From Quercus robur (taxonomy: Eukaryota; Streptophyta; Magnoliopsida; Fagales; Fagaceae): 64,000 nucleotides of DNA. A program made the translations under genes and the position numbers. Under the pieces are notes generated by a model. The model did not search any database. It saw only the letters and a list, made by a program, of their open reading frames with translations, and had not been told where the DNA came from. The stretch is taken from contig NC_065536.1 of the NCBI RefSeq assembly GCF_932294415.1, positions 15,683,974 through 15,747,973 on the forward strand, read 5' to 3'. Below, in pieces: positions 1,559 through 62,098 of the stretch (within the stretch, counting starts at the first letter, position 1; the number at the start of each line of letters is the position of its first letter).

Positions 1559-3420
1559 AGGGTAGGTTTGAAGTTGGCTGGTTGGAAAGGGAAATTACTC
1601 TCTTCGAGTGGGAAGGAAATTCTCATTAAGGCGGTGGCCCAAGCCATCACCACTTACATCATGAGCTACTTCCAACTTCCGAAAAGCCTTTGTGATGAGC
1701 TTGAAAGAATGATGAGGAATTTTTGGTGGGGGCAAAAAAACCAAGAGTCGAAAATTGCTTGGATTAGTTGGAGAAAGATGTGCAAGCCCAAATCTCTTGG
1801 GGGTTTGGGGTTTTGAAATTTGCAGGCTTTCAATCTAGCCCTTTTAGCTAAGCAAGCTTGGAAAATTCTCACAAATCCAAGCTCACTAGCAGCACGCATT
1901 CTCAAGGCAAAATATTTTCCCTATTGTGATGTGATTAGTGCTAGCTTAGGCAGCAACCCCTCCTATACATGGAGAAGAATTCATAATAGCCTTGAGGTCC
2001 TTAGAAGGGGCACACGCTGGAGAGTCGAGAATGGTCGAAGGATACATATCTAGGATGATAAGTGGCTCCCAACCCCCTCGACCTTTAAAGTCATTTCCCC
2101 CCCTCGGATCATTGAAGACTTCCCCATGGTCTCCTCTCTCATTGACTCGGACACAAGGTGGTGGAAGGCCAATTCTGTTAGAGCTCTCTTCCTGCCTTTT
2201 GAAGTAGATACTATTCTCAAGATTCCCTTGAGCTACAATATGCCTGATGACAAAATCATCTGAATTGGGAATAAAAAATGAGAATTCTCTGTTAAAAGCA
2301 CTTATTTTATTGCTGTCAATCTCCTAGAATCACTTGAGGTTGCAGAGTGCTCTTCGGGTGACCCTAATTCCCCATTGTGGAGGAATCTTTGGAAGTTAGA
2401 GCTCCCGGAAAAAGTCAAAATCTTCGCTTGGAGAGCTTGATTAAATGGCCTGCCAACATTGGACAATATGCAAATGAGGGGTTTGTGCTCCAACTACACT
2501 TGCTCGATTTGTGATGAGGAAGTTGAGTGCTTAACACATAGCTTAATAACTTGTGACTTTGCCTTCTTAGTTTGGGCCCTTTGAAAGGGCTACCCACTTA
2601 GTTTGCTGCTGGAAACTCGAGACTTCAAAGACCTTGCCTTCCATTTTCTTGCAAATTCCCCATTGCAGCGCCTATTGCTTTTCTTTGCCATCTCCTGGGC
2701 AATCTGGCATAATAGGTTGCGATTCCATAATGAATGTTGCCTTTCGCCCCTTCAAACTTGGGAGATGGCTCAAAGATTAGTAGACGACTTCCACGGCGCC
2801 ATTAAGATGGATTTCCCCCTTAAACAACTCAATCAAATGAGCTAGTCTGCCCTACCTCCTGGTGTTTTCAAAGTAAATGTTGATGGGGTGTGTTCCCTTG
2901 AAATGGGAGTGAATTCTAGGGTTGGGGTGGTTATTAGAGATATGTTTGGCAGGGTTATTGCAGCTCTTTATAAGTCTCTTCCATCGCAATTCCCAGTTGA
3001 TTGGACGAATCTTTATGCTTTAGAGCAAGGCATTATGTTGGCGCAGGAAATGGAACTCTCCCAAGTCATCTTTGAATTAGATGCTCTCTTGGCTATCCAT
3101 GCTATTCACCAAGGCATTACTGGGGGTGAAGTTGGGCACTTGGTAGAAGGTATTTTGCAAGCCAAGGCTTCCTTCTCTTGCTACTCTTTCAATCACTTGA
3201 AAAGGGACTACAATAGGATTGCTCATAAGCTTGCTCAGTTCGCTAAGATCAACCATTGTACTCAAGTTTGGAAAGGTGTTTCCCCACCTTTTGTATCTCA
3301 TCTGATTCTATCAGATTTAGAGCCTCCTAATTTGTATCCCTGCTGGTGGCTCTCTGTTGTAATCCTTTTCTTGTTTAATGAAATTGTTTTCCTCTCCCAA
3401 AAAAAAAAAAAAAAAAAAAA
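1559..3420 (+). mobile_element. 5'-truncated L1-type LINE (RT C-terminus, zinc-binding region, RNase H) with poly(A) and TSD
   Basis: One reading frame runs from 1568 to the poly(A). It encodes the reverse-transcriptase thumb region (GWKGKLLSSSGKEILIK, then WISWRKMCKPKSLGGLGF), the zinc-binding segment (SPLWRNLWKLELPEKVKIFAWRA and a Cys/His cluster near 2490-2540) and a plant-type RNase H domain (VGVVIRDMFGRVIAALYKS at about 2920-2980). The endonuclease and the RT core are missing, as in a 5'-truncated LINE insertion. The 3' end is 22 A residues at 3399-3420. ATCTAGAA flanks both sides (1551-1558 and 3420-3427), the likely target-site duplication. The frame has stops at 1814, 2051, 2261, 2279, 2438, 2582 and 2843 but no frameshift, so it is a dead copy. 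Confidence 0.85.
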
Positions 3421-3427
3421 TCTAGAA

Positions 3428-4200
3428 GAAGTTATTTATGCAAAATAAGTTGCAAACAAATAATTATAAAAGAATTATTAAGTAATATGACAAAAAAATT
3501 TCTAAGAACATTCACAATGAGCTCAACTTCCTTTTTATTTTATTTTATTTTTTTTTTTTGTGGTGAACAAAACTCAATGTTTCTTGCTCTAATGAACTAA
3601 TAAATGCCTCATCAATATTTTGGGGAGCAAAACTCAATTTTGCTTTGAACAAAATCAAACTGTGCAGATTTGATATAAAAGGATTGTTTGAAAAAAATAA
3701 AATAAAGAAAGAATATATATATATTTTTTTTGTATAAAAGAATATTTTAATATAGTGGAGAAAATAGAGGCTCATTTGGTACGTGTGTTTAAATAACAGT
3801 TTTCAGTTTTTTTTAGAAATATGTATGAGTGAAAAAGTGTGTGAAAATGTGAATAATATTGTTTAAAAACTGAAAATATATATTTCAAATGATGTATCAA
3901 ACAATCTCAAAAAATTTGTTGAAGGGATGTACTAAAAAAAGATAGGTAATTAAAATAAAACATTAAAAAAAAGGTTTTTTTTTTTAAAAATTTTTTTTAT
4001 AGAAAAAATAAAAATAGGGTTTTTTTTTTTTTTTTTTGAGAAAGAAATAAAAATAGGGTTGGTAACAAAACTAACCTTGATAAATAATAGTAAATCCCAT
4101 TAGATTGGACAAGCTACAAATGTACTGAAGTTACCATTATACCCAAAATGAGTAGGTGTTGGAAAAGTCTAGAAGACCACACTGCCTCATCACTACTTCT
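3428..4200. other. Intergenic DNA and SOD upstream region
   Basis: No gene is visible. The stretch has many A/T homopolymers. At 3504 the sequence TAAGAACATTCACAATGAG resembles one end of the TTA-targeting inverted-repeat elements seen elsewhere in the window, but I cannot find its partner. A small MITE lies at 3767-3908. GTAC tetranucleotides, the core of the plant copper-response element, occur at about 3779, 3929 and 4123, a number compatible with chance. Confidence 0.5.
3767..3908. mobile_element. Short MITE-like inverted-repeat element (about 140 bp)
   Basis: The left end GAGGCTCATTTGGTAC pairs imperfectly with the reverse complement of the right end (GAGATTGTTTGATAC). The interior is AT-rich with paired CAGTTTT and AAAACTG words. 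Size and ends suggest a hAT-like miniature element; the class is inferred. It sits about 300 bp upstream of the SOD TATA box. Confidence 0.4.
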
Positions 4201-4207
4201 CTTTCAC

Positions 4208-4215
4208 TATAAATA
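4208..4215 (+). promoter_or_regulatory. TATA box of the Cu/Zn SOD gene
   Basis: TATAAATA follows CTTTCAC and lies about 110 bp before the end of the first leader exon. Transcription would start around 4238-4245. No coding frame lies between this box and the 5'-UTR splice donor at 4320, which fits a leader exon of about 80 nt. Confidence 0.7.
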
Positions 4216-4304
4216 GGATCATACCCATAAATACAGTCCACCAGATAGTCTCATTTGATTTGTGATCTCTCATCTCTACAATCTGATCATTTTCCACCGT
4301 TTCT

Positions 4305-5739
4305 AAGGGGTGTTCTGAGGTGAGCTCCTCTCATTTCCACTCCTAGTTTCTGAACATGGGCTTAGATTGTTCTTTCATGATCTGGGTTTTGGTTCTTTCA
4401 TCTGTTTCTTAAGGAAAAAAAGGATGCACATTTTCTTTTTTGTTTATAAAAAGGTTGTATTTTTCAGTTATTTCTCAAATTTGGCTTGATTTTTTTGCTT
4501 TAGATTTTGAAGATCTGCTCTTTGTTCTTACTTGTAAACCGGTTGATCTTTGTTTTGTTAAAAGATTTCTCTTTTGGTCAATGTGACTGTTGAGGAAGTT
4601 ATATTTAAGGATCCTGTACTTAAATTTATTGTCTTTTTTTGGGGTTTTTTGGTCCATGTTTGCGAATTTTTATGATGGTTCACAGATCGCTTCAGTTTTT
4701 GGTTCTGGTGAGTTAGATAATGATTTATGATGTTTTGATTATCTGTTTTGTTCTCTTAATTTTTAGTTAGATTATGTGTGTATGTGTGTGTGTATTATAC
4801 TCTATGTTGGGATGTTGAGAGATGAGACGTTGAGAAAAATTAAGAGAATTTAAGATGGGTATTCTTATTTTGACCTAATATTTTAGCTTGTATCTACTTC
4901 ATCCACTGTATCCATGGAAGTTTTTGTTGGCTGACGGTTTAGGGTGTGGATGTAATAGAAATTGGAGTAGATAAAGTAATCCATATGTGTAATATTTGTG
5001 CTCTACTGGTTTTTGAGAATTAAAGAAGAAAAAACAGTGATTGTTCACCTCAAACGAGCCATATAATAGTCATTTGAGCTAAGTTTACTTTTTGTTTTGT
5101 AATGCTATTTGTTGTATATATCAGCTTATTTGAGTTTATGGTGGTTCTGATTCTGCGAAAGCAAGTTGCTTTAGTTTCTAACACGCAATAAACCTGTTTT
5201 CTACCTTTGAAAATATGTAACAAACTTTTAATTTTTGTGAGACCTTCAAAACACTAGCTACTAGAAAAGGATTTAAGATTACGATTACCAATACTAAGCT
5301 GTCTGCCAATTTTATGTTGGTGGTTACATTATACAAGCCTTTATGCTTACATCTGGGTTTTATTTCCCTCAAGTAATTGGCCATCATTACAGAACCTGAA
5401 CATAGTTAGAGTGGTCTAATATCTTTTGAATGTTATTTTCTGTTTTGTTGTGAAGGAATACTGTAATCAATAAACAGTCTTATTATTTCCCACTAGTAAT
5501 TGGCCTCATTACATAACCTGGATGTAGTTGGAGTTGTCTAATATATTTTTGACATTTTATTTTCCTTATATTTATGAAGGCATACTGTGATCAATTAAAC
5601 ATCTTTATCTTACATTACATCGATCGTTTTCTTTATTACTTGTAATATCTTTGCATATCTTCTGTGTTCCTTTTCTTTTCAATGGTTTTTGTATGTTTAA
5701 TATCATATAGTTTTGATAAACTGTTTCATTTAGATCACA
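4305..5739 (+). promoter_or_regulatory. Split miR398-type target site across the SOD 5'-UTR intron
   Basis: The first leader exon ends AAGGGGTGTTCTGAG (4305-4319) before the donor GTGAGC at 4320. The second leader exon begins ATCACA (5734-5739) after the acceptor TTTAG. Joined, these give a 21-nt site complementary to miR398 from memory of that miRNA. There are three non-Watson-Crick positions: a U-U mismatch and a G:U pair near the centre, and one mismatch opposite miRNA base 5. miR398 is the known repressor of plant Cu/Zn SOD mRNAs under copper shortage. The six bases that pair with the miRNA 5' end come from the second exon, so the unspliced transcript lacks a full seed match. Confidence 0.85.
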
Positions 5740-5746
5740 TAGAACG

Positions 5747-7608
5747 ATGGTGAAGGCTGTGGCTGTTCTTGGAGCTAGTCCGAATGTCTCTGGCACTATC
5801 TACTTCACCCAGGAAGGAGATGGTAACTTGAAATTCCTGTATTATTAATAAGGAAATGAAATTGCTATTTTCCTATTTAAATTAATAATTTTCATTTCAA
5901 AATTTTTTCAGGACCAACTACAGTAACTGGAAGTATTTCTGGTCTTAAACCTGGACTCCATGGCTTCCATGTGCACGCTCTTGGAGACACAACAAACGGT
6001 TGCATGTCAACTGGTATATTCCAATGATCATAATGTTTGTATATTTGTTTAGGGGAAAAGTAGAGGGATTACACTTTGTTCTGATCAAATGCCCTTGCGT
6101 GTTTATTTTTATTAATTTTTTTTTAATCTATCTGCATGTAGGACCACATTTCAATCCTGCTAGCAAAGAGCATGGCGCTCCTGAAGATGAGAATCGTCAT
6201 GCTGGTGATCTGGGAAACGTCAATGTTGGTGCTGATGGTATGTCTTGTACTTAATTCTTCAGTCTTAAAGTTGTTTATTGGGGGCTTGAAGTTCCATTAG
6301 ATTCTGTGTTTTTAACTGATAAGAAGGGTTGAGATAGGAATGTATTTTGTATGACACATTTGGGGTACTAACATTCTCACTACATTGTTGTGATACAGGC
6401 ACAGTAAATTTCACAATCATTGACAAGCAGGTATGCTTCATTTCCTAGTTGATTTTAGTGTGTGTGTATATATATATATATATATAATTTTTTTTTTTTT
6501 ATAGTTCCTGTTGACTTATGTATTTTATATCTTTGCAGATTCCCCTTTCTGGACCAAATTCCATTATTGGAAGGGCTGTTGTTGTCCACGCAGATCCAGA
6601 TGATCTTGGCAAGGGTAACTATTTACTCACCTTGGAAACCATCCTAAGTGTTTTTTCCCTCCTAGATAACCGTTGATGACTTGACTGAGCTTTAATGACT
6701 TAGTGACTGTCAATTAAAAACTTGATCTGTGTATAAATTGTATCTTTCTGGAGTAAATAAGAAGTATGAATTGGTGCTTTTGTTTTCGTTTTGGGTTAAT
6801 GGTTGCTATGTCAAGCAAGACATCTAAAAATTTTGGGTAAATATTAGGAACCTGAAGTTTTGATAATCCCTTTGCCCCTCCCCTCTTTCAAATCGAAAGT
6901 TAAATAATACTACTCTCAAGTTATATCTGAAGAAAAGGAGACGACTCTCAAGTTTTTGACATTCAAGTAAAAATTAGCATTGAGCTGGACATGGAAACAT
7001 GTTCCAAAGAGGAGGGTAGGTGACGCTGATAACCCACCTCTTAATTATTTTATTTGAAACCTCTGGATTGTTTTCTGATATTGACTTTTGTAAATGAAGT
7101 TTTGCCTTTCCCCTAGTGCTTTTGAGTTTTGACCTTAATGATCATATTTTTTAAGTTAAAAAAAAAGTTTTGACTTTAATAATCTTATTCGAAAGGTCTG
7201 AATTGTTTTCTGTTTATTTTAATGGTTGATCATAAATTTTTGTGATTTTGCTAGCTAACCCTAATTATTATTACTTTTTTAAATGTTGTCTGCTTTTACT
7301 GGTCAAAAATAGTTTCCTTGTGTGCTTTTACTTGCCATGATAGGTATTGGTATCAATAAACTTACGTTAAACTTTTCTCCTATCTAATCCTTTTTTTATA
7401 ATATATATCCAGGAGGACATGAACTTAGCAAGAGCACTGGAAATGCAGGTGGCCGAGAAGCTTGTGGTATGTAAATTTGTCAGATTACATTGAAATAAAA
7501 TCACTGCATATATTTAAACATGCTATACAACCAAATTGATATATTGCTTAGGGTCCTCTTTATAGTATTTCTAGATTTTAATCATATATATGGTGATACC
7601 TCCCTCAA

Positions 7609-7656
<48 letters not shown>

Positions 7657-7943
7657 CGGATTGTGCAAAACTGAGTAAAATTCTGATAGTTGTACCAAAC
7701 CCAGGTACTTGATGCTCCTTAACTAGTTTTTTGATAAAATTGCTTAGAACTTATGAAAAGGATTTCTAGTTATATTCATTGCTCTCCTTCTCTGAAAACA
7801 ACATATTATCTTTGACAAATGTAAATATTTGTTTGTTTCTCATCTTATCTTGGATTCCATCTCTTTTGTTTTAACTTTGATGTTATAGTTATTGTACTTA
7901 TGTCTTTGTTTCTTGTGCAGGTATCATTGGTCTCCAAGGATGA
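5747..7943 (+). CDS. CSD1: Cytosolic copper/zinc superoxide dismutase, 152 aa, 7 coding exons
   Basis: The enzyme converts superoxide to O2 and H2O2 as a cytosolic homodimer. Exons are 5747-5822, 5912-6013, 6142-6237, 6399-6430, 6539-6614, 7413-7466 and 7921-7943. All introns are GT-AG and the sum is 459 nt including TGA. The start is the ATG beginning MVKAVAVLG, the normal plant cytosolic N-terminus without transit peptide. Copper ligands are His45, His47, His62 and His119; zinc ligands are His62, His70, His79 and Asp82. Cys56 and Cys145 form the intrasubunit disulphide and Arg142 guides the substrate. One oddity is Glu143 directly after Arg142 (GGREACG), where plant enzymes usually have a hydrophobic residue. 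A 5'-UTR intron (4320-5733) separates a TATA-proximal leader exon, and splicing creates a miR398-type site. The symbol follows the Arabidopsis cytosolic isoform and is by family. Confidence 0.95.
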
Positions 7944-7963
7944 ACTGCATCTTCTAATCCCTA

Positions 7964-8278
7964 CTCTGCTGTATGCTTTGCAAAGGACTTGTCGAGAACT
8001 CTTCTAAATAAATAACAAACTTTTGTCCACTCTCTTCAGGTCTATTTTTGTGATCCTAAATTAGGTACTGTACTCTGTCGTATGCTTCGCGAAGGACTTG
8101 TCGAGAACTCAACAAACTTTTGTCCACTCTCTTCAGGTCTGTTTTTGTGATCGTAAATTAGGTACTGTACTCTGTTGTATGCTTTGCGAAGGACTTGTCG
8201 AGAACTCTTCTAAATAAATAACAAACTTTTGTCCACTCTCTTCAGGTCTATTTTTGTGATCGTAAATTGGGTACTGTG
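7964..8278 (+). repeat. Three tandem copies of a 109-bp unit in the SOD 3' UTR
   Basis: Copies lie at 7964-8072, 8073-8169 and 8170-8278, starting 20 nt after the stop codon. Each begins CTCTG(C/T)(T/C)GTATGCTT and ends GGTACTGT. The middle copy differs mainly by loss of a 12-bp segment (TTCTAAATAAAT), giving 97 bp. Otherwise the copies differ at only a few bases, so the triplication is young. It probably lies within the SOD transcript and multiplies AATAAA-like words (AAATAAATAA) that could serve as polyadenylation signals. Confidence 0.9.
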
Positions 8279-11118: not shown

Positions 11119-13262
11119 TTTTTTTTTTTTTTGATAAGTAAGATGATGTATTACTAAAAAGGCAAATACAACAATTGGGGAACCGGTCCATCAACTTCCT
11201 TACAAAAAACCCATGGAGGGATGGAAGAGATGGGTTGGGGTCCCCAATTTAGAGAAATACACGCCCAACGGGCTAAATGATGAGCAAGCTCATTACAAGA
11301 ACGATAACAAAAGGAAAATTTTGCAACTGAAAAGTAAGGAAAAAGGTTGCGGATGTCTGAGATAATGGAAGAGATTTCCCATGGTGGATCGGAAGATGGG
11401 CAAACTATAGAGTCAATGACAACCTTGGCATCGCCTTCAAAGATCACAAACTTGTAACCAAGATTTATTGTTGTGGACATGGCAAGGAGGGCAGCTTTGG
11501 CTTCGCCCCAAACCGGGGATTGAGAAGGTTCCTTTGCTGTACAAACTGAGATAATCATACCATTAGGATCACGGCCAACAACAGAGATGAAGGTCGCATT
11601 TGGTCTAATGGCAGCGTCGAAGTTGAATTTGATCCAACCTATTGGTGGGGGGTGCCATTGAGAGGCAGTGGTGGGGGATATGGATAGCAAAGCATCAGAA
11701 TGAGACTTGAAAGATCTATTGATGTCAGCAGCCAGCCGATTAGGAGGGTCGAACAAGTCATCAAAGATCAGTTTGTTTCTACTCCACCAGATGCGGTCAC
11801 ACGTGATTGCAGCTAATAGGGAGAAGGATGGGCCAACTGATGGGCAGAGACCAAGGAGACTCACAGGATTTAGGATGGACTTAATCCAATCAGATGCTGA
11901 CTTTGGTGGGATGGAAGATAGATTGATGGGGATACTTGTGTGTCTCCATACAATAATGGCAAAAGGGCACTCAAACAAAACATGAACCACTGATTCTTGA
12001 TGATGATGACACCGGGGACAGGATGAATCCAACCCAGCCATTCTTCGAGCAAGAAATTCTCTAGTGGGGAGAACATCCCACGCAATTTTCCAAATGTGGT
12101 ATTTGAGTCATTCATTGAACTTCATGGACCATAATCTCTTCCATTCAACAGCAGTAAGGGGACCAGAATTTGAAAATCTGGCATTTTGGTCAACAAGGTA
12201 AGCTGACTTGACAGAAAATTTTCCACTTGGACATTTTGCCCAAAAAATGGAATCTGCAACTGGAGTGAAAGGAATGTGGATTTGTTGAATAGAGGAGGCT
12301 GTATCATGGTCGAAGAGGTTGTGGAGAAGAGCTCGGTTCCACTGTCTAGTTTCAGGAACAATTAGTTCAGAAACCAATTGTTGGTCTGGCAGCAAGGTTA
12401 TGTGGGTTGGGGTGAAGGATGGAAGTGAGGGAATCCATGGGTCATGCCAAATGTTCACCGAAGAACCTGATCCAATGAGGTAGCAGTAGCCTTTTTTTAT
12501 CAAAGGAATGCTTTTGTGAATGCCTTTCCAAATGTAGGATGAGTTTTGTTGGAGGGTAGAGGTTAGGAAGGGACGACCACGAAGGTATTTGGATTGGAGG
12601 AGGTTGGCCCAAGGTTTATCTGCACTAGATGCAATAATCCACCCAAGTTTGGATATTAGTGCATTGTTGATGTCATGAGCACGACGGAAGCCCAAACCCC
12701 CAGCAGATTTTGGTTTGCATAAAGAATCCCACGCTTTTGGATAGATATGGTGACCGGAATCAGTAAAACCCCAGAAAAAATCTCTGAGTCTGGCATCAAT
12801 TTTACTGCAAATAGACTTTGGAAGCTTAAATGATGACATCCAATAAGATGGTATTGAGGATAGCACAGACTTTATAAGAGTAGCTTTGGCAGCTTGTGAT
12901 AAAATCTTTGCTTTCCAACCAGAAATTCTGCTGTTGATTTTTTCTAAAATGGTGTTGAACTGAGCTTGGTGACCTCTTTGGATATGAGTGGGAAGCCCAA
13001 GGTAGAAATTCTTGGAAGTTGGTTGGTTCAAACCAATCAGGTTGCGCAGAGAGATTTTGCATGATGGAGAAACATTTCGACTAAAAGTTATTGCCGATTT
13101 CCTCTTGTTGATGGAAAGCCCAGACCAATTCTGAAATTGAGTTAAGCAAGATTGGACAGCCGCAAGGTCATCATGGTTAGCCCGAGAAAATACCACAAGA
13201 TCATCAACAAACATAAGATGCGAGATTGGGGGGCAATTTCTTGCAATTTTGATGCAAATTGC
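11119..13262 (-). mobile_element. 5'-truncated L1-type LINE (RT from the FVDD motif through RNase H)
   Basis: Read on the minus strand, the element begins inside the RT just before the catalytic motif (SHLMFVDDLVVFSR). It continues through the RT thumb, the zinc-binding region (CPRCHHHQESVVHVLFECPF) and an RNase H domain (IKFNFDAAIRPNATF to NELAHHLARWA), and ends at the stop near 11154. A 16-residue poly(A) (poly(T) at 11119-11134 on +) closes the 3' end. The only break I see in about 670 codons is a single in-frame TGA at 12108-12110 between two open halves. It is therefore younger than the LINE at 1.6-3.4 kb. Endonuclease and most of the RT are absent, so it cannot move itself. I could not fix a target duplication. 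Confidence 0.87.
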
Positions 13263-13764
13263 ATCAATTAAAAAAGCATTTGATTGGACTAATAGTACAA
13301 CTCAAAAACACAAAGGAGGGCATGACAAAATTTAATGAATTATTTGGTGTCGAGAGATTTTTCCCTTCAACCTATCATAAGCATGAAATTGTTAGATTTA
13401 CAACATAAAAGGACGAGAGAGTAGAAATGCTTAATTTGGAGAAAAAAAACATTGTAGTTATTACTTGAAAAGAAGTTAGAGGAATATTAACTCAAACACA
13501 CACATGGTCAATCCAACGCCTCATTTTGTTGTTGGTGAACTTTTGACCTCTGATTAGGATTTATGTTATCCTTAAATTCCTTAACTTGATAGTTTGAGGA
13601 AAGAAAAGAAAAAACATCCATGTTTCTAGCAATTTCCATAAACTGCATGCCGTTTAGCACACGTATAGTGAAGTTGATCACTCACAAAAAGCAAAAGTCG
13701 TTACACAAATCCCCTCTTCTCCTACCAACCCTGTTGTCTGGTCTAGGAATTCTCACTTTCCTCC
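13263..13764. other. Upstream region of the FRIGIDA-like gene
   Basis: About 500 bp of AT-rich DNA between the LINE and the FRIGIDA-like start codon. The promoter and 5' UTR should lie here. The last 90 bp before the ATG are pyrimidine-rich (CCTCTTCTCCTACC and similar), as in many plant leaders. I cannot place a TATA box with confidence. Confidence 0.4.
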
Positions 13765-16700
13765 ATGTCCTCCTCGTCCACTTCCTCCTCACTTCCAGAC
13801 CTTCCTCCACTTCCACAACTCCCACACAACCTTCGCAAATCATTCAAACTTCTCAAAACTCATGCTGCTGCTGTTGCCAATTTCACTCTCCAATGGCAGG
13901 ACCTAGAGGACCACTTCCATTCCATTCACAATTCAATCCAATCAAAACTCCAAGAATTCCAATCCCAGCAAAAAACCCATTTGGATTCTAAAGAAACCAT
14001 TTTGATTCCAACCCATGAATCCCAAGTCAATTCCAAAGAAACCCAATTGAGTCCAGCTCTTGAATCCCAAGAAAAATCTGAGGAAACCCAATTCTCAAAC
14101 CAACAAGACCAAGCGGATTCTGAGGGAACTTTGCCTGAAAACAATGGGAATTCTTATGAGATTCCAATAAATGAAGGTTGGAAGGCAGTGTTGTTGTATT
14201 TGAATGATCATTCGAAAGAGCATGAATCTATGCACAACGATTTATATAATGCGCTTAAGGATTATGTGGATCCTGGGAAGCTAGTGTTTGAGGCAGTGAA
14301 ATGGATTCACTCACAGGAATTGGAGAAGGGGAATACAGATAAAGAAATTCGTGTTTCAAGGTGGAGTTGTGCGCTTTTGTTGGAGGAGTTGCTGAGAGTG
14401 AAACCAGTGGTTAAAGCAGAAGTGAGAGAAGAGGCACTGAAACTAGCCTTTGAATTGAAGGGAAATATAAAAGAAGACGATATTGAGAATTCTTGGGAGG
14501 TTTTGGGGTTTTTGCTGCTTGTGGGTGCATTTGGATTGGTGGCTGAGTTTGATGAGGATGAGGTTTTGGAGCTTTTGAAATATAGTTTGCATCGTAAAGA
14601 GACTCCAGAGTTGGTTCGGGCTCTTGGTTTTGCTAACAGGGCCCTTGGTAAGTTTCAACGAATTTTTTATGCTTGTTATTTATAATTTATATATGTGGTA
14701 ATGTGGTATTATTATTGCACTATTTGGAGTGGTAACTCAGTGGCCTTACTAGTTACTAGTTACTAGTTACTACTATTTCCTGTACTTTGTAAGGTCAGTT
14801 GTTCTTATATAATGCAAAAAATGTAATGGCTGAAAGCTTGAGGGGTTCTTACTCTTTAGCTGGTTTGGTTAGTTTGAATGCTTTGATATGAACATGCTTG
14901 ATGCTCTGACAAATAAAAATTCTTCTTCATTTATGGGATTTCTTCTAGGACAGTGAGTCCCATATTTTATCGCATTGTTTATCAGCATTAGTAACATCAA
15001 ATCTTGGTATTGACCATTCAATATTCATTTCGAATCATTATGTTTGAAAGTTGTTTTTTTGATAAGTGATTATGTTTGAAAGTTGTTGCAATGACCATGT
15101 CAATTACCAAAATGTAACCTTTCATGGCTGAATGACTTTTTATGTCTTACACTCAATATCTACTTTTATTCATTTTTTTTAAAAAACTTTATTACTTGTC
15201 TACTTCTAAGATTAAATTAGACTGTTTCAATCTTATTTATTATATGATTATGGTGCTCAGCCACTAGAATTATATAACCATCTTAAAATAGTCACAGTTC
15301 TCTTACTTTTTTGACGTATAATGTTCCTTATTGATGCTTTAAGATTTAGATATAGTAGTCCATAGCTCTTTGGCTCTCTATGGCATTTTATTTTTTCTGC
15401 TGTACTTACACTGCATTTTAATTGAATCTGGAACTTTTCCTCTGTTCTAGTATGAATTTTTGAAATGTTGTGCCATGTAATGTAGAAAAAGAAACGTTTC
15501 TGGGTGTCACAAAAAAGAAAAAAAGAAAGAGATGTATCCTGGTTGGAAATCAGTGTACTTCTGGATCATAGATTTTGATACATTCAGATTTGCCAATTCA
15601 TGAGGGCTCAGGGTAGTCCTTGTGGTTTTGACTGCCTCATGGTAACACTTGATTGCTTTATGTGTAAATTATTTTTATTAAGAGGACTCTGCAAAGGGAA
15701 TTTATGGTAACTGTGCTCTTGCTGTCTTTGTATTGTATTCAGTGCTAGGGGGTTTATTTCTTAGTAAGTTATACAATTTTACTTTATTGTTCACATTTTT
15801 TACCCTCTATTCTTCCCTTCCACAAGTGGAATCTCTTCTTGCTGCATCTGTCACTGTTATTGCCTTGATTTTTAGTCAGGATATTGCTTATTTTGTTGTT
15901 ATCATATTTTACTTCTCTTTTCCCAAACCCTGATGAAGGTCCTTCATTTGTGTTTTACATGTCCTAGATTTTATCCAAAAACTCCTTACAAAGAATAAGC
16001 GACTCGATGCTATCAGATTTATATATGCATTCGAATTAGATGACAAGTTCCCTCCAGGACCCCTGCTCAAAGCCCATTTGAAGCATTCCAAGAAGAAAAT
16101 ATGGAGGAGTATCAGTAGAAACTATGGTTCTATACAACCTGACCAAAAGGTATATTTGCCTCTTGCTTTTCTTTATCACAGTTGCTTTCGATAACTAGTA
16201 TCAAATGGCTGCTTTGCTTAAACTTCAATTCATTAAATTCCTCACAGAATGAGATGGCAAATAGAGAAATAGCTGTTCTAAAAGCGATGTTACGATGCAT
16301 TGATAAGTACAATCTTGGATCCCATTATGATCCTAGGAACCTTGTAAATCGCATTGAGCTTCTGAAAAGGCAGAATCAAGAGAGGAAGGCAATGAAAGCA
16401 GCTTCTAAATCCAAGGCTCAGGTGCAACAGAAGAACACAAATAAACGTACTGCCAATTACCACAAAGCTGGCCGGGATCAGCAGAGCAGATTTAAGCGGC
16501 CTCAGACAGATGAATCTCGTGCATCTGTGAATGCAGCTTTCTCAATCCACTCAGTACAGCCATCTTATCCTCAGCGAGAAGGTTCTTTTGTGGGTCAAGG
16601 TGCAGAATACTTAAACCCACCTGCTGGAATGGCTGTGGCAGCAGCTATTCCAAATGTTTCCGTTGGTACGATCCACTCGAGGCAACTAACTCATTATCAG

Positions 16701-17150
16701 CCAGAAAGCTCATTCACAGCTCAAGATTTACAATACCTAACCCCATCTGCTGGACAGTATGGTTTGGCGCGCTCCTCCCCTGATCCCACACATGTGAGTT
16801 TATCAGGTGCACCATATGGTTTCCCGTACTCCAGTCCCATCCCCCAATATGCAAACTCGTCTGTTGGATATAATGGAATGGTGGGCTCCCAAACTGGCAC
16901 CCCATGGAGCTCATCATCTGGTCAGTATGGGGCAAATATTATTGCAAATGGGAGCACTGAGCAGATTGGATCAGCTGGAACCCAAATAGCTGTAGGCATT
17001 GCTTCTAATTCACATCCAGACAGATCAATTTCTTATTACCCAGGGAATCGACTTAGGAGCCCTAATTATCATGATGATAGGTCAGTGTCTCAAACTCACA
17101 GTAGAGATAAGCAGTCTCAGTGCCCACCACCAGCTATTTATCATCTTTAG
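13765..17150 (+). CDS. FRIGIDA-like protein, 655 aa, 3 exons
   Basis: FRIGIDA-like proteins are plant nuclear proteins related to FRIGIDA, the scaffold that activates FLC in the autumn-flowering pathway; most members have less defined roles. Exons are 13765-14647, 15968-16149 and 16248-17150, GT-AG with phases 1 and 0, totalling 1968 nt. The N-terminus is Ser/Pro-rich, followed by a probable coiled coil (about 25-70: LRKSFKLLKTHAAAVANF, LQWQDLEDHFHSI). An acidic/Gln-rich linker leads to the FRIGIDA core (about 135-420). Core hallmarks include the LLEELLRVKP stretch, WEVLGFLLLVGAFGL, and FIYAFELDDKFPPGPLLKAHLK in exon 2. Exon 3 opens with NREIAVLKAMLRCIDKYNL and then a basic stretch. The last 230 residues are Gly/Ser/Gln/Tyr-rich and probably disordered. 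The first ATG before this conserved start is used. Which paralogue it is cannot be settled here. Confidence 0.9.
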
Positions 17151-22750: not shown

Positions 22751-24346
22751 TCAAAGTTCCACTGCTCTGTTTCTTCTTCTGTCTCTCGTAGCCATTCTCT
22801 GCCCATACCTCTCAAATATATCTGCCAAATCAACTGACCCTACCTCTCTCAATTTCTTTGCCACATCCTCAAACATAACAACACCCTCCTCATTTGAATA
22901 ATACTTCAAAAACTTATTGTAATCAAATCTGGGAACCTCAAGCCCTTTCCTTAAACTCCTCTCCACATACTTTGTGGCTTCTAAAGACTTTCCCGCCTTA
23001 ACCAAACCACCAACAAAAATAGTTTCAAAATTCACAAGTGGGTCAGTTCCCTTCCTCCCTCTCTTCCCTAAATGCCCTTGCAATAACATTATGTAGGTAT
23101 GCATTGTCGGCTCACACCCTCTCTTTATCATCTCTCTAAACACTTGTGTTGCTTCACTTGCCCTTCTTAACTTCAAAAGTCCTTTTATCAACCCATGGTA
23201 CACATTGATATCCGGTTTCTCAATCCCTTCCACAATCCTATAAGCCTCTCTAACTCTCCCTCTCGCCAAAAGCCCATATATAAGCGATCCCAATGTTAGA
23301 TTATCAGCCTGAGCCCCTCTCTCACGCATTTCTTCAAACAACATGTACGCTTGTGCAATCTTACCCCTTTTGCACATCCACTCAATCACAAGCCTATAAG
23401 TTGAAAGACCCAAATCATCAATTCTCTTTGTCCTCATCATCTGAAATAACTTCAATGCCTCATCATACCTATTAATCTTGAAGAGGGATTCCATCATTTT
23501 CTCAACCGCATCAATATCAGGCTGGAACCCCTCATCCACCATCAAATTCCAAACCTTTGAAGCCTCAACCAAATCACCCACATCACAAAAACCCTGTATC
23601 AAACACTTATAAGTAACCCCACTTGGCTTTATCCATTCTTTCAACTTGGACACAACAAACTTGGCCTCCTCAACAAGTCCGTTCCCACACAAAGTCTCAA
23701 CCACCTTATTCAAAGTCTCCAAGCTATACTCATACCCACATGCATTCATAGAGTGAAAAAATTCCACACACCTTTTCAACTCCCTCGCTGCTGCCAAGGT
23801 GTTGAGAGCAATCCTAAAAGTCTTCTCATTGACAAGACGACGTCGTCCCATCTCATGGAGAAGCTCCCAGAAAAGCTCAATGTTGCGTGATTTGCCAATC
23901 ACGTCAAGCAACTTGTTGAAGGAGACAGAGGTGTGAGTGAAATGTGAATGTGAATTGGCTTCTGTGTATTGAAAGAAGCGGTAGACAGGTCGCCATGAGT
24001 AAGGGAACTTGTTGCAGACTTGGAGGAAGAACTCAAGGGTGAGGTGGTTGTCTTGGTCGAATTGTGACTGGCAAGCGTGGAGCTTGGAGTGAAGTCTTGG
24101 GTCTGGTGAGTCTTGTTGCTGGTAGAGGATGGTGCAGACTCGGAGTAGGTGATCCGGGTTAGGTGGCAAAATGGTGGTAATGGGCTTGGAAGGTTGTGGT
24201 GTGTGAGTACGGTTGGTGCTTAATAGATGAAGGTGGTGGTGGTGGTGATGATAGATGAGGTTTATGATGGGTTTAGTGGGTGCTATTCGTTTCACTATCA
24301 TTGAGAGAGACTGATCTTGTTCACAATTTGCTGAAGCAGACTGCAT
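22751..24346 (-). CDS. P-class pentatricopeptide repeat protein, probably mitochondrial, about 516-531 aa
   Basis: PPR proteins bind organellar RNA one base per repeat and act in processing, stabilisation or translation. This intronless frame carries about nine degenerate 35-residue repeats, for example VTYKCLIQGFCDVGDLVEA, STYRLVIEWMCKRGKIAQA and NVYHGLIKGLLKLRRASEA. There is no E or DYW extension, so it is P class and not a typical editing factor. The first in-frame ATG is at 24346. However, TTTCAATGCAG there looks like a splice acceptor, paired with a possible leader donor (CCAG then GTGCTATT) at 24867. In that case translation would start at 24301 (MIVKRIAPTKPIINL), a better mitochondrial presequence: basic, no acidic residues, followed by a His run. 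The C-terminus is basic (RDRRRNRAVEL). The target RNA cannot be read from the sequence. Confidence 0.92.
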   Translation of the reverse strand: MQSASANCEQDQSLSMIVKRIAPTKPIINLIYHHHHHHLHLLSTNRTHTPQPSKPITTILPPNPDHLLRVCTILYQQQDSPDPRLHSKLHACQSQFDQDNHLTLEFFLQVCNKFPYSWRPVYRFFQYTEANSHSHFTHTSVSFNKLLDVIGKSRNIELFWELLHEMGRRRLVNEKTFRIALNTLAAARELKRCVEFFHSMNACGYEYSLETLNKVVETLCGNGLVEEAKFVVSKLKEWIKPSGVTYKCLIQGFCDVGDLVEASKVWNLMVDEGFQPDIDAVEKMMESLFKINRYDEALKLFQMMRTKRIDDLGLSTYRLVIEWMCKRGKIAQAYMLFEEMRERGAQADNLTLGSLIYGLLARGRVREAYRIVEGIEKPDINVYHGLIKGLLKLRRASEATQVFREMIKRGCEPTMHTYIMLLQGHLGKRGRKGTDPLVNFETIFVGGLVKAGKSLEATKYVERSLRKGLEVPRFDYNKFLKYYSNEEGVVMFEDVAKKLREVGSVDLADIFERYGQRMATRDRRRNRAVEL

Positions 24347-26879
24347 TGAAATCACATTTTGTAGTGTCAAAATGGAAATTTTATCAAACCAATTATAACA
24401 TAAACTGAAATTGACTTATTAAAAACACACATTGATGTTTGTTACACATAACATTAAGCTATAAAGTTTCTATAATGGCAAAAGTCACCTAAATATAATT
24501 CATGGTAAAAAAAAAACCCTTCTACAAACTAGCATTTCAACTTGTAGAAGCTTCCCTAAAAGAAAGGGGCCCAATGGACATCACAATGCCTATCAGCAGT
24601 CTAAGCTTCCAGTGAGTTTTCAGACCTTGAATGCTTGGAATTGAAAAAAGCCACAGATGGAATCGGACTTAAAAAAATAATGCATAAAACTCTTTCAAAT
24701 TCAAGGCACTTCAATTGGCACACCATTATTAATAACAAAGACAATGTAAACCCTTTAAAATTACCACCATAAGCAAAGTTTGGAAGCTTTTCTTATTGAT
24801 TTTCCTGTGGTTTCTGAGCAACCAAACAAAGGAAACAAATGAAAAAGAGATAGAGGCAGAATAGCACCTGGAAGTAGAACGAGCTTAAAGTGATGGCAGT
24901 TCCATCAACCAATGTAGTTGAGAAGTTGAGCTTGAGAATGATGGCTATGGGGGTTTGATGGTGCACAAAGAGAGAAAGAGAGAGACGTGGCAGAAAATTC
25001 AGTGGGTCAGGTTTTTTTTATTTTATTTAATTTTTAATTTTTTTACTATGATTGATTTCACAGACTAGTGCATTCCCATCATGCTAGTTAAACTAGCATT
25101 TGGGGAAGAAAATAGCTAAACCCACACAAATCTGTAGTGCATCAGCCTCCTCAAACTAGCATAGAGAAGTAGCGTTTGAACTTTGAACATTATCTCATTA
25201 TTATTGTTGAGGGTACAATTAATCGCTATTGTTAAAAAATAAAAAAAAATAAAATCAGCTGTTTATTCAATTGCAGTATTGCATTCTCTCTCTCTCTCTC
25301 AATGTCTGATCCACATAGATTAGCGGTAGTTAAATTGTTGCTGGTGGACCGGTGGTGGTGCAAGGTGTTGGAGGTTTGACTGGTTTATGATTTGGGTTGA
25401 GTTTTGTTGGGTTGCATCTGTAGATGCTGGTTTGCATTCCTTTTACTCATTCTAGGTTTGAAGGTGCATAAGTTGAGTGAGGAAGAGTGTGAATGCTTCA
25501 GAACAAAATGTTTGATATGAGGACAAGATTCCATTCTTTTCATTGAATTAAAAAAAAAAAAATCTTCTTCCTTTTGTTTTCACAGGGCTCTGTTCCTGGT
25601 ACAAAAATCATACCCTATGCTTCTACTAAAGAAAAAAAAAGGCTACAACTATAAATTTTCACTACCAAAGTTTCTCATAGTCATTTCTTCAAACACATTG
25701 CATACAACTTACAGCCTAACAAAAATTGAACAAGTTATCGTAAAACCACAAAATTTATAACTCCCAATACCAAAGTCTCTCATAGTAACTTGTTAGGACA
25801 CAAAGAAACAATCAACAAACACTCACCTCGCAGTAGCTTCCCGATTCTGCTTACTACTTTTGCAACTTCTGCGAAGGTGAAGAAGACTAAAGAGAGAGCA
25901 ATCGGAAATACTCATAAAATCAGAATTTCTAAACGTTTAGCATTTGACACGTCATTTAAAACTAACAACAATTTAACCTAGCTAGTACCAAAGTTAACGT
26001 TAATTTAGTTTTTATACCGTTAATAACTCTAATTGTCGAAGTTAAGGAGGGGAGGAAGAGAAATCTTTGATAATAAATTGTTACTGATTTACTGGTTTTA
26101 ATCGAACATACCACTGATATTATTGCACTTAAAATTTGTTATATTAAATTATTGTGATATATTGTAGCATTTTTATCCAAGTAAATATTCTAAATTAATG
26201 TTGTCAAAAATTTTGTAACTCTATAACATTTTCCTACCAAATTTATTCTTTTTTTTTTTTTTGTGATTTAATGATTTTTTTGAAGCTTTGTCAAGTTTTA
26301 TTGTTGTGCATACATGACTAGAGAGAGTCGATAACGCAGGTGGACACATCTTTCTTGAGTGCATATTTTATTTCATACTAAAATGATAGACTTATAATCA
26401 GGACCGACTCAACAACTTTGAGAGCCTTAAACGAAAAATTTAAATGGAGCATTTTTTATATTTAAATATTAATTAAATAATATTTATTAAATTTTTTATT
26501 TTTATTTAAAATAATATTAATCATTATAATACAAATAAGTTGACATGATATAATCCAAATGGGTAGCATAAAAAAAAGTGGTAAAAGATATAGTGGGCGT
26601 GTGTGTATAAATTAAGTGTGGGTGTGATTGGGTTAGTGTGTGGCTGTGTGGCTGTGTGGCGTGTTGGGCCAGCTGTGAAGTGTGAACTATGGACTTATGG
26701 CCTTGTGCAGAATCAAGATGTGCAGTGATGTGGCTTGTGGGCAAACTGTGCAGTGCTGTGGGCTGTGCAAGACCAGCATAATGTCCTATCAATCAAGCAG
26801 ATTAAAAAATATAATTTAAAATATTTAAATTGAATAAAAAGCAAACTCTTCGATCTTAAATATCTTGGTTTACCGAAAA

Positions 26880-60489: not shown

Positions 60490-60588
60490 ATTTATTTTCT
60501 TTTCGTAATTGATTTGGGTTTAATTTTGTAATTTTTAAGTGGTTTAATTAGAAGGACTTTATTCTTATTAACGTTTAGTTTTTCATTC
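60490..60588. repeat. Second copy of the duplicated 100-bp segment, between two LINE pieces
   Basis: Nearly identical to 58213-58311 about 2.3 kb away, in the same orientation. The right edge joins directly to LINE RT coding sequence (GCTTTTCAATTACGG at 60594), and the left edge joins the RNase H fragment through a TATTTA-rich stretch. Confidence 0.92.
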
Positions 60589-60589
60589 A

Positions 60590-62098
60590 AGAGCTTTTCA
60601 ATTACGGCACAAGCTCATCAATGTTAGGGAGGAATTCCAAGTTTGGAATAAGGAAGTGTTTGGGAAGGTGGAGAATGAGATTCACATGAAACAAAACCAA
60701 CTTAAATTGGTGCAGAACTCTATTTCGTCCCTTCAGGATGTTAAGAGGGAGGCTGAGTTAAGGGAAGAGTTGGAAGTTTTGATGCAAAGGGAGGAGGTTA
60801 TGTGGGCTCAGAAAGCTAGGAGTGACTGGATTCTTTTTGGGGACAGAAATACTAGGTTTTTCCAGACTGTTGTAAGGCAAAGGCGAGTTCGGAATAGAAT
60901 CATGCATCTAAAAAGGGGAGATGGTAGCTTTACTGATGACCTAGGGGAAATTGAGGACATTCTTGCTCAGCACTTTAGGAATGCCTTTGAGGACAATGTT
61001 CCTTTATCTTATGACCAGATCCTTGCTGATGTAGGAACTCTACCCTTACCTCAATTGTCTGCTCATCAACTCTCTTCTCTTGATCGGCCGGTCACTACTA
61101 AGGAAATTAAGGATACTGTTTTCCAGCTGGGATCTCATAAAGCCCCTGGTCCAGATGGTATTCCTGCTTTTTTCTATCATGAGTACTGGAGTATTGTCAA
61201 GTTTGATGTTTTTAACACTGTCCTTGCTTTCTTCCATTCAGGTTCTCTGCTTAAGTCTCTTAATTCTACTTATATCACTCTCATTCCCAAAGTTGCTTGT
61301 CCTGATATTGTGAATCACTTTAGACCTATTAGTTTGTGTAATGTGATTTACAAGATTATCTCTAAGCTTTTGGTTAATCGTCTTAAGCCTTTTATGGACT
61401 CTCTTATTACTCCCTTTCAGAATGCTTTTATTAAGGGAAGGAATATTTCTGATAACACTCTCCTTGCTCATGAAATCTTTGATTTTCTTACAAAAAGGAA
61501 GAGGAGGAAAAAGTCTTATGGAGCTTTGAAGATTGATATGACAAAGGCTTATGATAGAGTAGATTGGAAATTTTTAAAGGCTGTGCTTACTTCCATGAAT
61601 TTTAGCCAAAATTGGATACAGTGGATTTTACAGTGTGTCACCACAGTCCAATTTACCCTTCTTGTGAATGGAAGTCTCTCTCAAACTTTTAAGCCCAAGA
61701 GGGGCCTCAGGCAAGGTGATCCTTTATCACCCTATCTTTTTCTTTTGTGTGCAAATGTTCTTTCCCTTGCCCTCATTCAAGCTGAGCAACATAATAAGAT
61801 CCAAGGTATTAGAATTGGTAGGAATGGATGCACCTTCACCCACTTGCTGTCTGCTGATGATTCCCTCTTGTTCTTCAGGAGAGATGCTAAATCTATTGAC
61901 AATATTCAATGCATTTTACAGTGGTACTGCTTTATTTCTGGTCAGAGCATAAATGTTGCCAAGTCTGATTTGTTTTGCTCTTCAAATATGCCAAGAGTTG
62001 AGCAAGAGAACCTAGCTTCGACCTTAAAGGTCAACCTAGTGTCGGAACCTAGCAAGTATTTAGGTTTAAATTTCAAACTTAAGGGCAAGAGAGTTTAG
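60590..62098 (+). mobile_element. LINE reverse-transcriptase piece, open for about 500 codons, truncated at both ends
   Basis: The frame starts upstream of 60656 (AFQLRHKLINVREEFQVWNKEVFG) and runs open to TAG at 62096. It covers the linker after the endonuclease (WAQKARSDWILFGDRNTRFFQ) and the RT core: SHKAPGPDGIPAFFYHEYW, LIPKVACPDIVNHFRPISLC, KIDMTKAYDRVDWKFL, GLRQGDPLSPYLFLLC. The catalytic motif reads SADD in place of FADD (Ser codon at 61850-61852). The RT stops at YLGLNFKLKGKRV and then unrelated AT-rich DNA follows. The RNase H end, poly(A) and endonuclease are missing. Loss of the 3' end is unusual for LINEs and suggests later deletion or partial copying. The lack of stops makes it young. 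Confidence 0.88.

Follow-up and report, generated by a model that had tools for sequence, protein, structure and literature searches.

In a 64,000-nucleotide stretch of the Quercus robur genome (hereafter the window, from whose first base positions are counted), the gene for cytosolic Cu/Zn superoxide dismutase (SOD), CSD1, probably carries the known 5′ leader target of miR398, cut in two by a leader intron and assembled by ordinary splicing. The first 15 bases of the site, AAGGGGTGTTCTGAG, lie at 4305–4319 on the forward strand (+), with GTGAGC next to them, and the last six, ATCACA, lie at 5734–5739 (+), with ATTTAG before them; they stand opposite miRNA nucleotides 21–7 and 6–1, respectively. 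Once joined, the 21-mer AAGGGGTGTTCTGAG/ATCACA (RNA AAGGGGUGUUCUGAG/AUCACA; the slash marks an exon border) forms 18 Watson-Crick pairs out of 21 and one G–U pair with miR398. A preliminary description of this DNA had claimed that 15 bases at the end of leader exon 1 and six at the start of exon 2 make up such a miR398-complementary 21-mer, and the letters are as it gave them.

The sequence of miR398a-3p, UGUGUUCUCAGGUCACCCCUU, was taken from the accessible part of a blueberry table (PMC5751366). Paired with it, the joined site shows a U–U at nt 5, a G–U at nt 12 and a U–U at nt 13, which gives a score of 5.0 and a duplex energy of −28.8 kcal/mol, or 71% of the perfect duplex; the other miR398 form (ending GCCCCUG) scores 6.5. 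The strict cut-off for such scores is 4, which the joined site exceeds, and this counts against targeting. miRNA nt 6–11 are all paired, including both sides of the predicted cut (nt 10 and 11), which alignment arithmetic places between 4315 and 4316, inside exon 1. The predicted 3′ cleavage fragment would thus start at 4316 (tags beginning with TGAGATCACATAGAACG), with four exon 1 bases in front and 17 nt in all before the start codon, and the joined site itself ends 7 nt upstream of that codon.

The seed straddles the junction, with miRNA nt 1–6 against exon 2 (a mismatch at nt 5) and nt 7–21 against exon 1, and only the spliced mRNA is therefore a good miR398 target: pairing in the unspliced RNA scores 11 on the donor side and 13 on the acceptor side, compared with 5 after splicing. 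The preliminary description had argued that the mature mRNA is targetable and unspliced RNA escapes because the seed pairs with the second exon. Unspliced RNA is indeed a poor target; the reason given for this needs correction, as the seed lies across the border and not on exon 2 alone.

Identity of the gene and its surroundings

The CSD1 coding region, as read from the sequence, spans 5747–7943 (+) in seven coding exons with GT-AG borders (5747–5822, 5912–6013, 6142–6237, 6399–6430, 6539–6614, 7413–7466 and 7921–7943), encodes 152 amino acids and ends in TGA. Its protein matches Pfam PF00080 (Sod_Cu) at 6.6e-52, and six distinct sequences among the Cu/Zn SOD chains in the PDB match it at 1e-60 or better. 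Two of the PDB matches, 8jd8 (3.1e-85) and 2q2l (6.6e-85), extend over all 152 residues; the 323-residue chain 6dtk matches residues 2–150 at 1e-99. These similarities identify the gene as a cytosolic Cu/Zn SOD (CSD1). We searched the genome (785.7 Mb in 42 contigs), in which the window spans C3:15683974–15747973, for the Cu/Zn SOD family by exon-by-exon scoring of the best candidates only. Of the 13 candidates scored, six matches exceeded the curated cut-off, and they fell in four places, namely the window gene and one locus each on contigs C1 (L007), C35 (L008) and C41 (L009). By comparison with the window protein, we read these three as chloroplast CSD2, CSD3 and the copper chaperone CCS (CCS-like), respectively. 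Among the best candidates of this search, the window gene was the sole cytosolic CSD1 found.

Several features were noted around these genes. Just 3′ of the CSD1 stop, a tandem repeat at 7962–8277 comprises three in-register copies of 110 nt; in ungapped comparison with the first copy, the second is 67% and the third 96% identical. TRF describes it as 2.6 copies of 97 nt at 8014–8277. Another tandem repeat lies upstream of CSD2 on C1 (L007, 5479–8248), where three or four copies spaced by approximately 683–698 nt extend up to the CSD2 start; repeat families D1–D4 are 94–99% identical and D5–D7 less so. On the other side of CSD1, a LINE probably ends shortly before the promoter: window positions 2846–3448 contain an RVT_3 domain of the reverse transcriptase type, and an A-rich run lies near 3400. 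Other reverse transcriptase pieces occur at 11154–13301 and 60572–62098, and the neighbors include pieces of a Frigida-like protein (13747–17150, +) and a PPR protein (22751–24415, −).

Predicted leader structure and splice signals

The leader model that places the joined site in the 5′ leader of the cytosolic Cu/Zn SOD was built from a TATA box and splice signals. The TATA box, TATAAATA, lies at 4208–4215 (+), and its spacing suggests a transcription start near 4240. Leader exon 1 would then span 4240–4319 (+; 5′ end approximate) and contains no upstream ATG. It is followed by a predicted leader intron of 1414 nt at 4320–5733 (+; GTGAGC...ATTTAG), which holds 29 ATGs, and by the leader part of exon 2 at 5734–5746 (+), up to the SOD start codon. 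The splice sites read GAG/GTGAGC at 4319/4320 and ATTTAG/ before 5734.

Scored against the nine-position donor consensus, the donor at 4320 agrees at 7 of 9 positions, and the other ten GTs in 4244–4420 agree at 4 or fewer. Three others among the 103 GTs in 4244–5650 reach 7 or 8 of 9 (4583, 4708 and 5373), and all of them are intronic. One of these, at 4708, is at 8/9 better than 4320 at 7/9, which we count against the predicted junction. We infer that the junction 4319/5734 is used in the plant.

MIR398 loci and a proposed course of regulation

Exact mature miR398 occurs twice in the genome, at C1:17020336–17020356 and C3:65730017–65730037, and the backwards-read miR398 pattern was absent from the same genome search. 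Both loci fold as hairpins, at −60.9 and −48.8 kcal/mol. Furthermore, CSD2 of the same genome contains GCGGGTGACCTGGGAAACAT within its coding region. This match was identified by eye; we take it to be the usual CSD2 miR398 site, which presumably needs a bulge. The genome thus has the components of the known module, namely MIR398, CSD1, CSD2 and a CCS-like gene. Our miR398 scorer is ungapped and fails on known target types: scans of the CSD2 and CSD3 loci gave no match at a score of 8 or lower, and the CCS-like locus gave 7.0 at L009:6674 (+) and 8.0 at 539 (−). As a separate observation, CSD1 6201–6222 (coding AGDLGN) aligns with the presumed coding miR398 site of CSD2 and pairs at −21.5 kcal/mol; it is a possible weak second miR398 site.

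On the reading that we prefer, transcription would start at about 4240 and the 1414-nt leader intron would be removed routinely, so that the spliced mRNA shows a 21-nt miR398 site shortly before the start codon. Under copper scarcity, AGO1 guided by miR398 from the two MIR398 loci would cut the CSD1 mRNA between 4315 and 4316, and its translation might be repressed as well; as miR398 falls, CSD1 would rise. Cleavage and copper response of the window CSD1 are parts of this proposal. If the site is used as predicted, miR398 acts on CSD1 only after splicing. A site of this kind would go unnoticed in target prediction or degradome mapping on the unspliced genome, since just 4 bases of the cleavage tag lie upstream of the junction.

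Splicing as a possible route of escape

The preliminary description also saw leader splicing as a possible switch on SOD control. In this explanation, splicing is regulated, and an alternative or intron-retaining leader induced by stress escapes miR398. The retained donor side, which scores 11, fits this idea, and the principle has precedents. In peanut, AhCSD1-2.2 lost its miR398 site by alternative splicing and bypassed miR398 in drought, according to the accessible passages of a review (PMC9502370, citing Park and Grabau 2017), and the soybean forms GmCSD1a-1 and GmCSD1b-1 have 5′ UTRs without the miR398 site and went undetected by 5′ RACE, as the available text of that study states (PMC7201782). 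Escape of CSD1 from miR398 by splicing is therefore an already published principle. Intron retention as the main route is weakened here by the 29 upstream ATGs, one of which opens a 23-codon reading frame (5682–5753) that overlaps the SOD start. Because of these ATGs, intron-retaining RNA, if exported from the nucleus, would probably make little SOD, and a translatable escape form would therefore need another 3′ splice site.

Three acceptors leave the leader free of upstream ATGs, namely the normal one (exon from 5734) and those with exons from 5711 and 5743. The first of the two candidate alternatives, TATAG/TTTTGA at 5709–5710 (+), would start the exon at 5711 and lose the site (score 12, no upstream ATG), and it is a cleaner candidate for escape than intron retention. 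The second, CATAG/AACGATGG at 5741–5742 (+), lies 9 nt downstream and was rejected as a clean escape, since its score of 7.0 and almost unchanged duplex energy of −28.5 kcal/mol indicate a site weakened and not removed. When each of 64 AGs was taken as the acceptor for donor 4320, only 5734 gave a score of 5 or lower, and eight gave 7 or lower (nine including 5743); several acceptors score this well because exon 1 alone provides most of the pairing. With 5743 at 7.0 and seven other acceptors at 6 to 7, not every acceptor shift escapes, and this argues against a switch. So does the available part of the soybean study (PMC7201782), whose authors report that the effect of miR398c on drought tolerance was unaffected by CSD1 alternative splicing. 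In rice, the accessible text of PMC8068833 describes OsCSD1 as without alternative splicing; for OsCSD4, two forms of the 5′ UTR are described (excerpts of PMC9191229 and PMC8068833).

On these grounds, the suggested switch finds no support in this gene, where a retained intron brings 29 upstream ATGs and probably little SOD, and we regard regulated leader splicing as unlikely. We think that spliced-only recognition follows from where the intron is placed and not from a dedicated splicing switch. The position of the site would also make CSD1 sensitive to small splice-site shifts.

Predicted fold of the mature leader

In the predicted fold of the mature leader, TGTGATCTC in exon 1 (4261–4269) pairs with GAG/ATCACA across the junction. 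The last nine site bases have an unpaired probability of 0.02–0.03 for transcripts starting at 4230–4260, rising to 0.36 when the start is put at 4265 and to 0.42 at 4270, and opening the site in the folded leader would cost 10.5 kcal/mol. The exon 1–site pairing of −19.8 kcal/mol was noticed post hoc and is weak as evidence; it is moderately unusual, with 109 of 5,000 shuffles and 25 of 3,197 window segments pairing at least as strongly. The whole-leader fold is not unusual (z = −0.31; 341 of 1,000 shuffles equally stable). This modelled masking advises caution about how efficiently the site may be cut.

The pairing could accordingly be a remnant, such that CSD1 is not effectively cut here owing to the mismatches and the leader hairpin. 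The score of 5.0 and the paired state of the last nine site bases in the predicted fold are in its favor, as are two reports on other plants: longan DlCSD1a is a predicted target whose cleavage was not detected, which its authors link to low miR398a (available text of PMC3623967), and miR398 cleavage of the cytosolic SOD is described as absent from rubber tree in the accessible part of PMC3821574. The tea gene CsCSD7 is likewise a predicted target, for which the available passages give cleavage ends only outside the site (PMC6786557). Against a remnant, the maize SOD-4A site, called a validated target in the accessible text of PMC4510349, scores about the same as the window site on the same scorer (5.5 and 5.0 with the two miR398 forms), and soybean CSD1a/b are miR398 targets by 5′ RACE and degradome in the excerpt available (PMC7201782). 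The leader as a whole also folds no better than its shuffles. We therefore consider a remnant quite unlikely.

A further model combines splicing and folding. As TGTGATCTC resembles the miR398 5′ end TGTGTTCTC with one difference, splicing might both create the miR398 site and fold it away, with TGTGATCTC as a built-in competitor of miR398, and the acceptor giving an exon from 5711 or an unwinding of the leader would then set the escape of CSD1. We hold this model, which depends on the predicted fold, to be very doubtful.

Expectation by chance

We compared the joined site with all GT-AG junction 21-mers in the window, joining each GT to each AG 70–3000 nt downstream on both strands, with at least 3 bases per side, and scoring against either miR398 form. 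A chance resemblance to miR398 is scarcely credible, since one of 15,782,160 such 21-mers scored 5 or lower, and this one was the claimed junction, at the expected place in the CSD1 5′ UTR. None of the 127,960 contiguous 21-mers on both strands of the window (2 × 63,980) scored 5 or lower, the best reaching 6.5. Dinucleotide shuffles of the 93-nt leader gave a score of 5 or lower in none of 20,000 cases and 7 or lower in 7 of 20,000. The observation of the 21-mer is correct and goes far beyond what chance would give.

The best contiguous target-like 21-mer, at 6.5, lies at 4309–4329 on the reverse strand (−), across the unspliced donor, which means that the pre-mRNA, read in the sense direction, looks like miR398 itself at this place; we take this as chance. 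An Rfam search of the whole window found no family at the gathering score, and relatives sought in viral contigs (6 loci, 49–51% identical) were uninformative here.

Comparison with published CSD1 targets

Plant CSD1 carries a miR398 site in its 5′ UTR, with cleavage confirmed by 5′ RACE, according to the accessible passages of a review (PMC9502370), and the same position is given for rice CSD1 in the available text of PMC8068833. These targets are like the window gene in the gene concerned, the position in the leader and the miRNA. The likeness to maize SOD-4A extends to the letters, as the last 11 site bases, CUGAGAUCACA, are common to both sites, including the nt 5 mismatch (excerpt of PMC4510349). 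Some matches to this shared 3′ part in the literature excerpts searched are the miR398 precursor or star strand and not a target. The tea gene CsCSD4 was cut by miR398 in 7 of 10 clones (accessible text of PMC6786557), and in upland cotton all miR398 sites located in SOD genes fall within coding regions according to the part available of PMC5429560, an observation that weighs against our preferred reading.

In the literature passages searched, most subscription journals being outside their scope, we found no CSD1 miR398 site that straddles a leader splice junction, and the Arabidopsis counterpart of the exon 1 half likewise had no match in the text searched. A comparable gene structure is that of rice. 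The coding region of OsCSD1 starts in predicted exon 4, and part of exon 3 is transcribed upstream (available part of PMC9191229), from which we infer that it has a leader intron, as in the window gene.

For escape, the nearest counterparts are those of peanut and soybean, each as far as the accessible parts of the sources go. Peanut AhCSD1-2.2 is like the window gene in the gene and in the idea of escape; the isoform is reported there, whereas here it is a potential read from DNA alone. Soybean GmCSD1a-1 and GmCSD1b-1 have an alternative leader without the site, as would the candidate leader of the window gene with an exon from 5711. The biology of the window gene would thus extend the reported examples and adds no new kind of control.
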